Made by a program: the position numbers and the translations under genes. Under the pieces are notes generated by a model, which saw only the letters and a program-made list of their open reading frames with translations, ran no database searches and was not told where the DNA came from. A stretch of DNA of 64,000 nt from positions 620,001-684,000 of the forward strand of contig QPFY01000017.1 in assembly GCA_003665825.1 (NCBI GenBank). Reading direction: 5' to 3'. The stretch is from Microbotryum silenes-acaulis. Taxonomy: Eukaryota; Basidiomycota; Microbotryomycetes; Microbotryales; Microbotryaceae. Positions 32,555-63,853 of the stretch are shown in pieces; the stretch's first letter is position 1, and the number at the start of each line of letters is the position of its first letter.

Positions 32555-35500
32555 TCAACGACTCTCCACCGCTCTGGCAGAAAATTTGATCACCGTCCTC
32601 ATCGCCCTCTGGGTCTGACCCAACCAAGGCCCATAATGCAAAGCCTTCTCCACCCCTCGACTCGCCTTATCGACATCTTCGTTCAGTGCGAATGCGAGAC
32701 CGCTCATACCAAGACTTTGGAACGCTCGAATACCTTCCAGTTGCGCTGTGGGTGGGATCGGTGGGAGGAGGCGCAAGACGACCGGAATCGCGATGGTGGG
32801 GGAGGGGACGGTCGTCGAGTGCTTTGGATCGGAGAGAGCTTTGGGGAAGTCCGTGAGGAGTCGAACGAGACGCGCTCGATTGGGTCGTGTCCATGGTGCG
32901 ACATGGAGAACTCGACTGGTCAACCGCACAGCACCGTGAACATCACCTTGGATCAACCGACCGAAAGCGGTGAGTTTGGTCGAAGCGGGTGAGTATTTGA
33001 TGATGGGGTCCGAACGCTTCATTCGACTGAGCATCTCGTCCAGTGCTGGTGTGCGAGTGATGATGGAGAGAGCTTCCAGAGTGAGCTTGATGAAGAGCGG
33101 GACCGAAGATTTGGTGCTATCATGCCACGACAAACGGAATGGGTCAGTCTATTCGCAAATCCCCTCGCCAGGTAGCGAGATGAAACGTACATATCAGGTG
33201 AATCCAACAAAGCGCCCAACGCCCTCGTCTCATCCCCTCCGGCAAAATAAATTCTTGCCAACGCAGCAGCGAGGTGAACCGTCCGATCATTCTTGTACAG
33301 ATCCAAGTCGTCATTCGCTTCTTCCAAAGTTTGTTCAGCCATCGAGATCTCTTCAAGGAAGTAGTGCGCCAGTGCCGAACCGAGGTTGCAATGGGAAAAT
33401 AGGATGACGGCTTGGTCCTGCGTCAAGGCGTCCTTCTCGGTTGGTCTGGCCTCGAGGTCGATGAGGGACAACGCAGCGTCGAAAGCTTCGAGGGCATCCT
33501 CGTAGTTCTCACTTGCTAGTCGGACCCGCCCCAAATTGGTCTGGGCAATGATGAACCTCCCTTCGACGCTTGCGCTCTCGTCCTCTTCGTACAACTCCTC
33601 CAACAACGCAGCAGCACGTTCAAACGACTCGCTCGCCGCTTTCCGATCACCCAAATGTTCCAAGATCAACGCATTGACGTGTAAAGCTGAAACGTCATTG
33701 GGTCGTCGTGTGAGGTATCGAGTAATGGCGAACAAAGGTGCGGTCAGATTCTTAGCGGCGTCTGGACGAGCGGGGTCGAAGCGGTCCGCTACCAAGTCTG
33801 GGTCGACCGACGTCGAACGACGATACTTCTCTAATGCATGGGAAGCGAAAGCGATATCCGCTTCGGGCGTATCCGCTCCCAAGGTGAAGGCATGCTCCAA
33901 GAGGACCGAAGCTTCCAATGCATGACCGGCCATATCAGCCAAAGTCGCTTGTCCGATCCATGCGGCGGCCCATTCGGGATCGATAACTTGGGCTTTAAGG
34001 AACGCTTGGTTCGCCAGATCGTCGTCGTTGTGCACGAGGTAGAATAGGCCGAGATTCGTCCAGGCGATCGCATTCTGCGAGTTGTGCTCGATCGAGCGGA
34101 TGAAGCAATGCTGGGCAAGACGACCACTGATGTCGAAAGTCAATACACCGAGGGCGTTCCAGAAGGACGAATTGAAAGGTTCGTGATGGAGACCGAACTT
34201 GAGCGCTCGAATGGCTTGGTGCAGAGCAGTCTCTGGGGTAAAGCGAGGCGAGAGCTTCGACAAGTAAGGGCGGAGATTGGCGACGCTCGTTCCCAAATCT
34301 GCCCAAGCCGACCCAATTGCTGCTTCGTTATGTGTATCGAGGACTACGCGCGCTTTATGTGCCAGCACTGCGACTCCAGCGAACAGGATCGGTGACTCGG
34401 ACGATTGCGCGACGTCGAGGAACGCGGCTACGGTGACGACGTCGATCCCATCGACTTTGGTATCGACATCCATTTCACCCGCGAGTTTGACAAGCTGAAT
34501 TGCAAGGCCCTTGGAGCGTTCGAAATGAGCGCACTCGCTGATCTTGACCAAGTTGCTCGACGCCTCCCCAGCGAGCTTCCAAGCGACCCTCTTTGCACCA
34601 CCTGTCCCAATGACCCGAATCGCTTGCTCCAGCGTCTCGACGAAAGATTCTTCAGCACGCGAGAGGAACCCCGTTCGGAGTTGTTCCATACCGGCGCTCA
34701 ACAACGTTTCGGCGTAAACGACTTGGACGCCCAACTCGTCTGGCCTTTCGACGAGCAAGTCTTTGAAGGTCGTGAGAGCCGGTTCGAACAAGCCCATCTC
34801 GCGTTGAATACCGCCGATCGAGAACTTGGCGAACCAGCTATCCGAATCGATGGAAAGAACTTTAGAAAATACCTTGAGCGCGGCAACATGCTTGCCTGAA
34901 CCTCGGTACGCGGCACCGAGGCGAAGCCAGGTATGCACGTCCTCGGGTTCGCCGCGGAGAGCCGATTGAAAAGCCACGATCGCTTGCGGGTACTTTTGAG
35001 AGTTCTGAGTACACCCACGCAACAAAGACAGTTAATTCAACCCGATACAGGTTCAGTGTCAAATCGAAAAGCCACTCACCATCTCACTGCCCCCGATAGC
35101 CTTATAAGCCCAAGCCAACTTCTTGGCCGTTGATACACCGACAGCCGCCTTGGCCGCCGCAGCCTCGACGACCCTCCTCGCCACCTTTTCAACCAAACCC
35201 CAATCGCCGATCTCGGCAAAGTCCTCGGCAATGTAGCGGGCCGCGACTTCTTGTGACTGATCGAGTTCGAAGGCCCTTTGGAAGCATTTCAACGACCGCG
35301 ACCAGTCGGGTGGTTCGATACTTCGGTAATAGATGCCCAAACTCGTCCACGTGGGAGCCAAGTCGGGAAAAGCCTTGATTGAATCGAGATAGGCTTGAAA
35401 TGCGCGTAGGGTCAAACTCTCGTCTTCCTCTGACAAGACCCAGTCGCATTCACCCAATCTCCACAACGCTTTGGCTCGTTCCTCGGCCTCTCGTGACGAT

Positions 35501-45417: not shown

Positions 45418-45425
45418 CCGGAGCT
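45418..45425 (+). repeat. 8-bp direct repeat, left (candidate target duplication)
   Basis: CCGGAGCT occurs here and at 48674-48681, at opposite ends of the element. On the right it abuts the TIR; on the left three bases (AAT) intervene, so its status as a target-site duplication is tentative. Confidence 0.5.
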
Positions 45426-45428
45426 AAT

Positions 45429-45458
45429 AGGACCCCAGAAAGCCCAGCCGGAGGCACA
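45429..45458 (+). repeat. Left terminal inverted repeat
   Basis: Thirty bases beginning AGGACCCCAGAAAGCCCAG; 27 of 30 match the reverse complement of 48644-48673, with the outer 19 identical. Confidence 0.85.
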
Positions 45459-46346
45459 TTTTTATTTTTATTTTTGACATTTTGAGGACCCAAAATCCTG
45501 AAAATCGTCGAGGCGCATTGCAAAAAATTGACATCTTGGGACGAAACACACGTTTTGCCCCCGAGACGCCGTTGCAGATTTTGACATTTTTCCCGTGGGT
45601 CGACGCAATTTTGGCCTACCCTGAGCAGCCTTCGGCATGACTTTGGGCCCGTTCGCCTTCGCTTCGAGACGCGCGTCGCGATGCTCGCGCTTGTTTGGTT
45701 CTGTTAATCTTTATGCTCGTACAGGTCTCGCTTTTCGGCTTTTGCTGCAAGAGTTTGACGCTGAGGACTTTAGCGCGCGCGACCTCAACACCCCCCGCTG
45801 TAAGCCGTGCCTGCACGCATTCCTCGAGCCTTGGGCCGTAAGCCGCACCCGCGCAGGAATTTCCCCAAGCACGCTCCCGCCGCACTGGGTCAGTTCCGCA
45901 CTGCCTGCTGTTGCCGTACCAGTATTCGCTGCGTACCTTTGCCACCTCCTGCCAAGGTTGGTTGCCGTCCTAGATCTTTTCCTGCCCTCACGCCCTTTGG
46001 CTGACAGGTTCCGAGCATCTCACAGGACCTCCCCAGCGATACGAACACGCAACTGCCTCCCAGTCTTCTGCCCTGCCAGACTACGACGGACAGCTGCCCA
46101 CTGTGTACGCCTCTTCCTTTCAACCTTCCTTGTTGGATTGTTGACTGACTGTTCATACCCTGTATGCAGCCATTCTGCCCTACACCTGCCAGTGTAGCTC
46201 CACCTTCTTCTGCTGAGTACCGAGTCACGCTCCCAGAGCTAAGGTACATCACTCCCCCGCATTAGGCTCTACCTTTTGGTACTCCTGCTCACAACTGTCC
46301 TTGTTGGGCATGTTGGCTTACTTGGCTACCTTGCGCAACAGACTAC

Positions 46347-46651
46347 ACTCGCCACCCAACGTGCCAGCGTTCAGGGTCGGTCCCCTTATCACAAGTGTCA
46401 CGCTTTCCAAGCAAAGTGTCCTATTTTTGAGCTGTTTTAGGTCATACCTTCGCTTCGCTTCGACCCCATCTTCATCATGACGGTCGATCCTTTCAGCGAC
46501 GACTACGTTCCGCCCGTCTGGGATGCCGCGCACTCGATCCCTACCTCCGGCCACCAGACGGAGAAGGTGCTATTGCGAATTGCGGAAGTATGGAGCGACG
46601 CGGACGGTGGTCTCCTCACGGAGGCGGATGTTCTGCTCATTAAGACGGAGT
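46347..46651 (+). repeat. Left arm of 305-bp inverted repeat
   Basis: Matches the reverse complement of 47176-47480 over 305 bp with two mismatches that I can see (near 46437 and 46642). It contains about 130 bp of upstream sequence and the first 58 codons of the element ORF. Confidence 0.95.
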
Positions 46652-47187
46652 TCGAGAACCAGTCACTCGATCCCGCAGCCCTCAACTTCTGGGAGAGTCA
46701 AATCGACAAGCTTCCCTTAGGTGTCAAGCTCAGCATCGAGTCGCTCGCAGATGCAGACTTGCATCCCGTCCTCGCGCACGCTCTAGGCTCGACTCGTCCG
46801 GCCGACTACATTGCTAGCTACGGATCTCGATATTGGACGAAGAATCTGCAGTCGTACCGACTCCGCCGCCAGTCATCAGCAGGAGCTTTGTCAGCGATTC
46901 AAGCCCACAACGACGAAGTCGAAGCCGAGGACAACGTAGAGGACGCACACGATGATACAGCTCGCCGTGTCGCATCTATTCGAGGATTGGGGGACCTACC
47001 GATTTATGTCGCCAGCGAACTCGACACCAATCACGACGGACGTTTCATCGTACGCTCCAACCTGTTCATCGAAGGCGAGGTTCCTTTATCTGCATTGCCC
47101 GACGGCGATGAGGTGAGGTACAAGTACTCCTCCCTACCTCGTCGATGGATCGTCACCGTCACCGCGCCTGCCACGACTCCGTCTTGA
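46477..47187 (+). CDS. Unrecognised element-borne protein, 236 aa
   Basis: Open frame from MTVDPFSDDYVPP to TVTAPATTPS. Composition is protein-like, with acidic N-terminal helices (EKVLLRIAEVW, LTEADVLLIKTEF), a middle RYWTKNLQSYRLRRQ and a C-terminal beta-rich part (GRFIVRSNLFIEGEVPLSAL, RRWIVTVTAPA). I do not recognise a family: no DDE, HUH, zinc finger or reverse transcriptase motif. The last four codons and the stop lie inside the right inverted-repeat arm, so the natural protein was probably longer and this copy is truncated by the inverted duplication. It could encode an accessory protein of the element or a captured host gene. Confidence 0.5.
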   Translation: MTVDPFSDDYVPPVWDAAHSIPTSGHQTEKVLLRIAEVWSDADGGLLTEADVLLIKTEFENQSLDPAALNFWESQIDKLPLGVKLSIESLADADLHPVLAHALGSTRPADYIASYGSRYWTKNLQSYRLRRQSSAGALSAIQAHNDEVEAEDNVEDAHDDTARRVASIRGLGDLPIYVASELDTNHDGRFIVRSNLFIEGEVPLSALPDGDEVRYKYSSLPRRWIVTVTAPATTPS

Positions 47188-47480
47188 TGAGCAGAACATC
47201 CGCCTCCGTGAGGAGACCACCGTCCGCGTCGCTCCATACTTCCGCAATTCGCAATAGCACCTTCTCCGTCTGGTGGCCGGAGGTAGGGATCGAGTGCGCG
47301 GCATCCCAGACGGGCGGAACGTAGTCGTCGCTGAAAGGATCGACCGTCATGATGAAGATGGGGTCGAAGCGAAGCGAAGGTATGACCTAAGACAGCTCAA
47401 AAATAGGACACTTTGCTTGGAAAGCGTGACACTTGTGATAAGGGGACCGACCCTGAACGCTGGCACGTTGGGTGGCGAGT
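47176..47480 (-). repeat. Right arm of 305-bp inverted repeat
   Basis: Antisense copy of 46347-46651, including a second copy of the start codon and first 58 codons of the element ORF on the minus strand. The arms are separated by a 524-bp loop. A transcript through both arms would fold into a ~305-bp duplex. Confidence 0.95.
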
Positions 47481-47675
47481 TCGACTGGTCCCCGCTACCT
47501 GGTCCGGACCGCGCTTCTACGAAAGAGTCGAACTAGTCATTTTTGTAATCACTTTATTAGTGCGGTGGCTGTTAGGGACTAGATACCAATAGTTCCCAGT
47601 GTGATTGAAACGGCGCCGGTTCCGTTCCGCTTCACTTCGTTCTGACATTGAAGCATAGCACGACAACATGATCCC

Positions 47676-48371
47676 ATGCTTTTTTCTCGACGAAGACCAG
47701 GACTGCTATTTGAACGGACGATGACTGATCGATTATCGCCGCTCACCAACACGACAATCGCCGAGCTCCTCGCCTTCGATGTATCATGTCGCTCCCGCCG
47801 ACGCGTCTCTTCGCACCGAGTTGTCCAAAGACAAGCCCACCCAGTAATCGACCTACCCTACCCGACTCTCCAGACCAGAGACGCGTCGACAAGCAGTACG
47901 GAGCGCTAGCACAACGCTATCGTCATTTTGGATCGCTAGACGGAGTTGTTACCACTGCCACACCATTGGAGATCGGATCTCTGATCTGCTTTGGCCTCAA
48001 GCGTGGCATGCAGCTGCGATCAAATCGCTTATGGAGAAGAACCGCTGTCCATAGGAGCTTCGCCTCATTGAGAAAGCATGCTATTCCACTCACATTGATG
48101 GCACTATGCCGTTCCGCATGACTGATGGTCGACAGGTCATCGAGTCATTACGCCCGCCAACGACTACATATTGTCCCACAAGGACCTTACCTCATGTTAC
48201 CCCGACGAGCGCATAATCAGCACGTGCGCACATGCCGAGCAAAGATTGCCGCCCTTCGGAGCGTGCCCGGGCCGCGAGATGTCGCCGGTAGAATCTCTAC
48301 AAGCTGCACAACTGCCACCGCGGATACAAATAGCTCAAGTTCAGGAAAACGGAGGTCTGACAACGAAGTAG
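47676..48371 (+). pseudogene. Degraded coding remnant inside the element
   Basis: Several consecutive plus-strand segments read like protein but change frame: MYHVAPADASLRTELSKDKP near 47780; DLLWPQAWHAAAIKSLMEK near 47985; and, in another frame, ELRLIEKACYSTHIDGTMPF near 48055. Stops interrupt the path (for example at 48036 in the WHAAAIKSLMEKNRCP frame). This may be the broken remainder of an element gene. No family recognised. Confidence 0.35.
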
Positions 48372-48643
48372 CGAGCCCGCCAGTAGAGCAAGGACGGCCC
48401 TCTTGATGCCTGGAGCCACGCGCGACACCAGCCGAAGCGACGCGCGCCGCAACCCACTTTTGATCGGCCGCCGCGCGCCCGCAAACGCTCGGAACGCGTT
48501 TTCGAGGACTTTTGAGCGATTCTTGGAGCATGTAGAACACATTTTGATAATATTTTCGAGGCGCATGTGAAAGTTTGACATTTTGGGGCCAAAATAGGGT
48601 AGAAAACTTTGACACAAAGGCAAAAAAAGTGCGTTTTTCCACA

Positions 48644-48673
48644 TGCGCCTCTGACTGGGCTTTCTGGGGTCCT
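48644..48673 (-). repeat. Right terminal inverted repeat
   Basis: Reverse complement of the left TIR at 27/30 positions; the outer end reads CTGGGCTTTCTGGGGTCCT. Confidence 0.85.
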
Positions 48674-48681
48674 CCGGAGCT
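48674..48681 (+). repeat. 8-bp direct repeat, right (candidate target duplication)
   Basis: CCGGAGCT directly adjoins the right TIR and repeats the octamer at 45418-45425. Confidence 0.55.
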
Positions 48682-63733: not shown

Positions 63734-63853
63734 ACTCTGTTCTCGTCCCTGTTCATTGGACTGAGTCGTGGTCATCATCAGGTCAGCTCTTTGGAATCTT
63801 ACCTTACTCTGTTCTCGTCCCTGTTCATTGGACTGAGTCGTGGTCATCATCAG
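63734..63853. repeat. 48-bp exact direct repeat, 72-bp period
   Basis: Bases 63734-63781 and 63806-63853 are identical (beginning ACTCTGTTCTCGTCCC and ending CATCATCAG), separated by 24 bp. Confidence 0.92.

Follow-up and report, generated by a model that had tools for sequence, protein, structure and literature searches.

A partly duplicated and inverted, defective retrotransposon copy within a TIR transposon of Microbotryum silenes-acaulis

Inverted arms within two nested elements

We analysed a window of 64,000 nucleotides (C17:620001-684000) from the genome of M. silenes-acaulis, and own-genome searches were run against the 29.85-Mb assembly with its 88 contigs. Positions are those of the window unless a contig (C) or a compared locus (L) is named. 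The region around the inverted repeat contains the following features, given with their strand where they have one.

45418-45425: probable 8-bp target duplication CCGGAGCT, left copy, 3 bp (AAT) before the TIR
45429-48673: outer TIR DNA transposon copy, non-autonomous, with TIRs of 31 nt at 90%
45429-45459 (+): left TIR, starting AGGACCCCAGAAAGCCCAG
45728-47531 (+): inner element, 1804 bp, a rearranged and internally deleted copy of a probable tyrosine-recombinase retrotransposon, delimited by an empty site
45728-46476 (+): 5' leader, upstream of the ATG, common to L010-L015, L062, L072 and L073 at 77-98%, in pieces
46244-46341 (+): intron-like segment 1 (GTACAT...CAG), retained in the window and absent in L046 and L033
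46347-46651 (+): left arm, comprising 130 nt of leader followed by 58 initial codons, from the repeat search
46416-46417 (+): junction without intron-like segment 2 (GTATGC...TACTAAT...AAG), mirrored in the right arm
46477-47187 (+): ORF of 236 aa for the N-terminal portion of a gag-like protein, ended by arm sequence
46652-47175 (+): loop, the gag-like ORF continued in left-arm orientation, from the repeat search and homologues
47159-47350 (-): antisense ORF out of the right arm, with the same start, about 63 codons
47176-47480 (-): right arm, inverted copy of 46347-46651, from the repeat search
47481-47531 (+): 3' end (...CTACGAAAGAGTCGA), 51 bp, 98-100% identical in L010-L015
48643-48673 (-): right TIR
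48674-48681: probable 8-bp target duplication CCGGAGCT, right copy

The arrangement is real and structurally clear. An earlier note, made from the letters alone, had described near-perfect arms around a loop, and the repeat search on the window confirmed them: two arms of 305 nt, 99% complementary, separated by a spacer of 524 nt. The arms have only two mismatches, T at 46436 against C at 47391 and T at 46641 against C at 47186, where 47391 and 47186 are read as the reverse complement. With a 14-base seed, no further inverted pair reaching 40 bp was reported across the 64 kb. That the arms comprise the upstream region and the first 58 codons of an ORF also proved correct, with the ATG at 46477, 130 nt 3' of the left-arm start, and the enclosing TIR element could be verified at 45429-48673. 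Beyond this, we found that the arms sit in a second element, which is nested inside the TIR element. Its parts follow each other as leader, arm, loop, inverted arm and last 51 bp, and the arms are inset from its ends by 619 bp at the 5' side and by 51 bp at the 3' side.

No Pfam family was found in the ORF 46477-47187. The proteins found to match it, as well as those matching a relative on C2, come from Microbotryum saponariae and M. silenes-dioicae. The first 71 residues match an M. silenes-dioicae protein at 87%, indicating that closer relatives of the coding part are present in another species. The product of the loop shares 59-61% amino acid identity with homologues on C10, C15 and C2.

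The outer TIR element belongs to a multi-copy family with at least 132 matches in its own genome; 40 of the 120 first-look candidates were scored, and the counts are lower bounds. An exact 8-bp target duplication is present in 7 of 10 inspected copies (the window and nine loci), the duplication of L018 agrees at 7 of 8 bases, and the inspected flanks of L007 contain none. In L002, which includes the right-hand portion of a longer copy, one ORF piece carries the domain HTH_Tnp_Tc5 (E=9.4e-15), while no domain family was detected in a second piece. The longer copy thus shares a Tc5-type DNA-binding domain with Tc5/pogo-like transposons. However, the outer family differs from them in its 8-bp duplication, found in the 7 copies mentioned, instead of the TA that is usual for Tc1/mariner-pogo relatives. 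Relatives of part of the TIR element, approximately 110-118 bp long and 87-88% identical, occur at 12 places in the genome (C62:1647, C31:47734, C18:591521, C16:10930, C9:1283403-1313568, C5:2244, C15:9238, C1:2456784, C14:876247-894913). Several of these sites lie near contig ends, which suggests a subtelomeric repeat.

The inner element, its relatives and its class

The ends of the inner element are given by a copy of the outer element, L005, which has an empty site, GTACAGGTC followed directly by ACTAGTC. Here, query position 299 is joined straight to 2104, and hence the insert comprises 45728-47531 with 0 bp duplicated; the absence of a target duplication was read from this one empty site. 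L010 and L011 have five identical bases at both flanks, so that small duplications are possible at these two copies.

Relatives of two kinds were found. L010-L015 are shorter and share the leader and the 3' end of the inner element, L012 and L015 beginning later in the leader. Longer relatives with homologues of the window ORF are located on C2 (L073), C10 (L072), C15 (L033 and L074) and C49, where protein identity amounts to 44-61% by piece; a homologue on C7 reaches 34%. The relative on C10 is adjoined by pieces of a Copia-type retrotransposon (RVT_2, rve and Pol_BBD at L072:1038-3918). A genome search for the same inverted arrangement had been proposed earlier as a check, and it revealed no second copy: all 16 of the 16 first-look candidates at arm-region matches were scored, and no place other than the window locus has the inverted pair. 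Among the 74 loci and the window (326,323 bases, overlaps counted repeatedly), the pair is found at the window locus only, and L010-L015, L072 and L073 have no such arms.

The class of the inner element is indicated by its relatives. In the C2 relative, residues 641-721 of a 752-aa frame match Pfam Phage_integrase with E=3.7e-4, below the curated cut-off, and the best PDB sequence match of this recombinase-like domain is a XerC-like recombinase (E=0.0033). The C15 copy (E=4.6e-4) and a distant element on C46 (E=3.3e-5) match Phage_integrase as well, both under the curated cut-off, and an alignment of 71 residues between the C46 element and the C2 recombinase gives 34%. The recombinase motifs H-x-x-R, GRW and Y were read by eye in the relatives. 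With NCBIfam, the C15 recombinase pieces gave weak recombinase matches only (E 0.02 and 0.13) and the C2 recombinase piece gave no match. Motifs resembling reverse transcriptase (RT) and RNase H were seen in pieces from C15 and C46 by eye only; Pfam found neither RT nor RNase H in these pieces, and the RT-like pieces of C15 and C46 align weakly with each other (E=0.019).

In the C15 copy, the 5' sequence of the element restarts immediately after the 3' end, although a tandem copy would look alike; L073 shows no such restart. A restart of this type is the prediction of split direct repeats as defined in PMC4157794, where Ngaro-type tyrosine-recombinase retrotransposons are described from zebrafish, sea urchin and fungi and the lack of a methyltransferase domain is given as a trait that separates Ngaro from DIRS. 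Pfam reports no methyltransferase in the scanned pieces of the relatives, which are degenerate or partial. Elements of the Ngaro type are not known to make a target-site duplication, and its absence fits recombinase-mediated integration. The relatives of the window element resemble Ngaro in their gag-like ORF and their recombinase-like C-terminal domain, the C15 copy in the 5' sequence repeated after the 3' end, and the window copy in having no target duplication. In contrast to Ngaro, the window copy bears an inverted duplication and is devoid of the recombinase and any coding sequence further on, and the RT of its relatives is known by eye only. Taken together, the inner element appears most like a tyrosine-recombinase retrotransposon of the Ngaro/DIRS type, and we file it nearest to Ngaro with membership unproven.

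Two intron-like segments in the leader were scored by pattern in 13 sequences including the window. Segment 1 is present in 10 of these and absent from L046 and L033, and its donor is changed in L011. The comparison with L046 and L033 revealed no long repeat at the ends of this segment, and its absence there points to spliced RNA. L033 also misses further leader sequence and is therefore weaker evidence than L046. Segment 2 is present in 8 of the 13 sequences and absent from four (the window, L010, L046 and L033); L027 could not be called by pattern. It is missing from both arms of the window, while 8 of 12 relatives checked possess it. Since a direct repeat of some 16-18 bp borders the segment on both sides, its loss may be a DNA deletion. 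Splicing could not have removed it from the right arm in place, as this arm is antisense, indicating that the template from which the arm was copied was already without segment 2.

The inner-family copy in L046 (~1494-1769; C3:1581458-1581733) lacks the two intron-like segments and is truncated on either side. It adjoins a histidine/proline-rich, coding-looking stretch and looks like a processed retrocopy, judging from its sequence.

Origin of the inverted duplication

The window locus is a defective copy of a retrotransposon, part of which is duplicated in inverted orientation; the arrangement is of a known kind and a one-off scar. For the arms we favour an origin by fold-back or template switch on a spliced cDNA, whose mechanism and timing we infer. 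According to this account, a copy of an Ngaro/DIRS-type retrotransposon would have been reverse transcribed from partly spliced RNA, and the growing cDNA strand would have broken or switched near codon 233 of the gag-like ORF, either during or after synthesis. The strand may then have folded onto its own 5' part, so that 305 nt were copied in reverse, and the element's last 51 nt would have been attached to this reverse copy, which yields the order of leader, arm, loop, inverted arm and 3' end. The product presumably integrated without target duplication into a resident TIR transposon, or was rearranged there later. At the right-hand junction, the comparison with L014 shows 0 shared bases, and therefore end joining is possible as well. 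We regard the account as a whole, from the partly spliced cDNA through strand switch or fold-back and joining to the 3' end to a defective copy nested in a TIR transposon, as probable (roughly 0.7). Within the literature searched on that combination, we found no published case of an inverted duplication in a tyrosine-recombinase or DIRS element of fungi.

Three copies of the outer TIR family, on C8, C19 and C9, carry another inverted duplication. Its arms are 233 bp long with a loop of 58 nt in C8 and C19, and the second arm is shortened in C9.

L021:1114-1637 (C8:264779-265302): copy of the second hairpin
L025:1986-2509 (C19:434558-435081): copy of the second hairpin
L075 (C9:1161949-1162413): copy of the second hairpin

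Both arms on C19 have three common changes, which are absent from both arms on C8 and from the left arm on C9; one of the three is also found in a single-arm copy on C11. Moreover, inverting the C19 loop gives the C8 loop exactly: the two differ at 0 of 58 positions after reverse complementation and at 46 of 58 when compared directly. In loop orientation, C8 is matched by the single-arm copies on C14 and C4, and C19 by C9. From these patterns, the arms of the second hairpin have evidently recombined with each other. As a consequence of this recombination in C8 and C19, the identity of the arms cannot date the duplication in the window, and dating by arm identity was dropped after the comparison. 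Over 562 leader positions, the window copy has 3 private substitutions and the six relatives L010-L015 have 0 to 7, in a count made on L010-L015 and the window, with L027 and L062 left out. Together with the 2 differences in 305 arm positions, these numbers would be compatible with a duplication and an insertion of similar age, arm identity being a poor clock. RIP was also considered as the cause of the two arm differences and rejected, as these lie in the contexts TCT and TCA, not in TCG, which is given as the RIP target context in PMC10502011.

An origin from two copies in opposite orientation, one inserted inside the other and then trimmed by two deletions, is unlikely. Nested insertions and inverted pairs do exist in this genome, for example the tail-to-tail pair at C7:1100411-1102944, and later conversion could mask differences between the arms. 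However, the arms differ by only 0.66% (2/305), whereas the closest separate copies differ by approximately 2% or more over the leader, and the duplicated part is without any element end. A chimeric assembly, produced by hairpin read-through or as an amplification artefact, was named in the earlier note as a serious alternative. We consider it very unlikely, although inverted structures are a known type of artefact: the sequence after the arms resumes with the 3' end of the family and the flank of the outer element, and the arms differ at two sites. The loop length of 524 nt argues against a chimera as well. The same holds for the second hairpin, which occurs with equal arm and loop lengths on C8 and C19 and partly on C9, demonstrating that such structures do occur in this genome.

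The possibility of a foldback transposon had also been raised and was not borne out. Foldback transposons have long inverted repeats at both element ends. The window element shares long inverted repeats with foldback transposons such as Tetris and Galileo, and its arms are nearly identical and lie within a mobile element, as would be expected if they were the functional ends of a foldback or DIRS-1-like element. Such a reading is nevertheless extremely improbable. The arms are not terminal, the element extending 619 bp and 51 bp outside them as the empty site shows, and no copy bounded by the arms was found; L010-L015, L072 and L073 are without them. Because the arms are internal, they represent neither a foldback transposon nor a DIRS terminal repeat. 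DIRS1-like elements are likewise tyrosine-recombinase retrotransposons with inverted repeats, but the arms in the window are internal, seen in this copy alone among those compared, and unpaired with terminal repeats. The coupling of inverted terminal repeats to internal ones, a trait of DIRS1, was not seen in the window or in the other copies examined. DIRS terminal repeats were thus ruled out by the empty site in L005 and by the relatives without arms.

If the locus is only a scar, it belongs to the ordinary outcomes of retrotransposon replication or repair, and it serves as a warning that inverted repeats cannot be dated by the identity of their arms.

Further self-complementary sequences were observed in the compared loci. 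The tail-to-tail pair on C7 (L041:767-3300) belongs to a distant gag-like family, is 80-96% complementary by segment, and its outer part has relatives of about 460 bp on C19, C4, C10 and C9. L027:2814-2994 is a perfect palindrome with 84-nt arms and a 13-nt spacer. Other self-complementary matches of at least 60 bp are short or weak, with 82% in L009 and 71-79% in L010, L013, L015 and L062.

Hairpin RNA and possible silencing

The earlier note had proposed that transcription from either arm gives RNA that can fold on itself. The capacity for folding was supported, as the + strand of 46347-47480 is predicted to fold with a 305-nt stem at -842.6 kcal/mol, a value for which there is no shuffle control at that length. 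The symmetry between the arms did not hold: in the right arm, no more than 130 nt of leader precede the ATG, and transcription from the two arms is therefore not equivalent. A domain search in the same genome revealed Piwi domains at two loci on C7, RdRP at one locus on C11 and a pair of RNase III domains within one frame on C5, besides which C12 has a weaker match to RNase III. These genes agree with the RNAi gene set of M. lychnidis-dioicae, for which two Argonautes, one RdRP and one Dicer are described in PMC4469406. According to the predicted fold, a hairpin transcript could be a good Dicer substrate and could be cut by a Dicer-like enzyme of the host. We take such cutting as a by-product and not as a function, and any siRNA production is inferred.

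The closest functional parallel is Mu killer of maize, a partial inverted duplication of the transposase gene mudrA that silences its family (PMC3440606). The parallel is one of likeness and not of membership. Like Mu killer, the window copy has undergone an internal deletion and carries part of its coding sequence as an inverted duplicate, from which hairpin RNA could form. The arms are about 1300 bp in Mu killer (PMC3440606) and 305 bp in the window copy; Mu killer is an siRNA-based silencer of its family, whereas the window copy is known from its DNA alone, and no near-identical coding target was seen for it among the compared loci.

By analogy, the window hairpin might be diced and its siRNAs might silence the retrotransposon family in trans, as a natural silencer of the Mu killer type. 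The predicted 305-nt stem, the Piwi, RdRP and RNase III genes of the genome and the maize precedent (PMC3440606) speak for this reading. Against it, the 21-mers that the arm has in common with other compared loci (68 of 285) all lie within its first 88 bp (46347-46434), and none of the 504 loop 21-mers recurs there. In the leader outside the arms, 504 of 599 do so. Since the ORF homologues share only 44-61% protein identity (34% on C7), no near-identical coding target was seen in the assembly. We consider a silencing role quite unlikely. A broader reading is improbable: in this fungal lineage, recurrent inverted duplications of non-autonomous transposon copies, their arms homogenised by recombination, would persist as heritable RNAi triggers against their families of origin, and the window hairpin would be a young analogue of Mu killer whose target is the leader of a tyrosine-recombinase retrotransposon together with its start-codon region. 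Should the hairpin be transcribed and cut by Dicer, a basidiomycete with RNAi genes would possess a natural trigger of the Mu killer kind, and the onset of transposon silencing would be directly testable at this hairpin.

Elsewhere in the window, a length-limited search with the ORF 33019-35025 gave 39 proteins among the matches listed, none of them from Microbotryum; the named fungal ones are from Rhodotorula toruloides. At 63734-63853, the window contains two identical direct repeats of 48 nt, whose starts are 72 nt apart.
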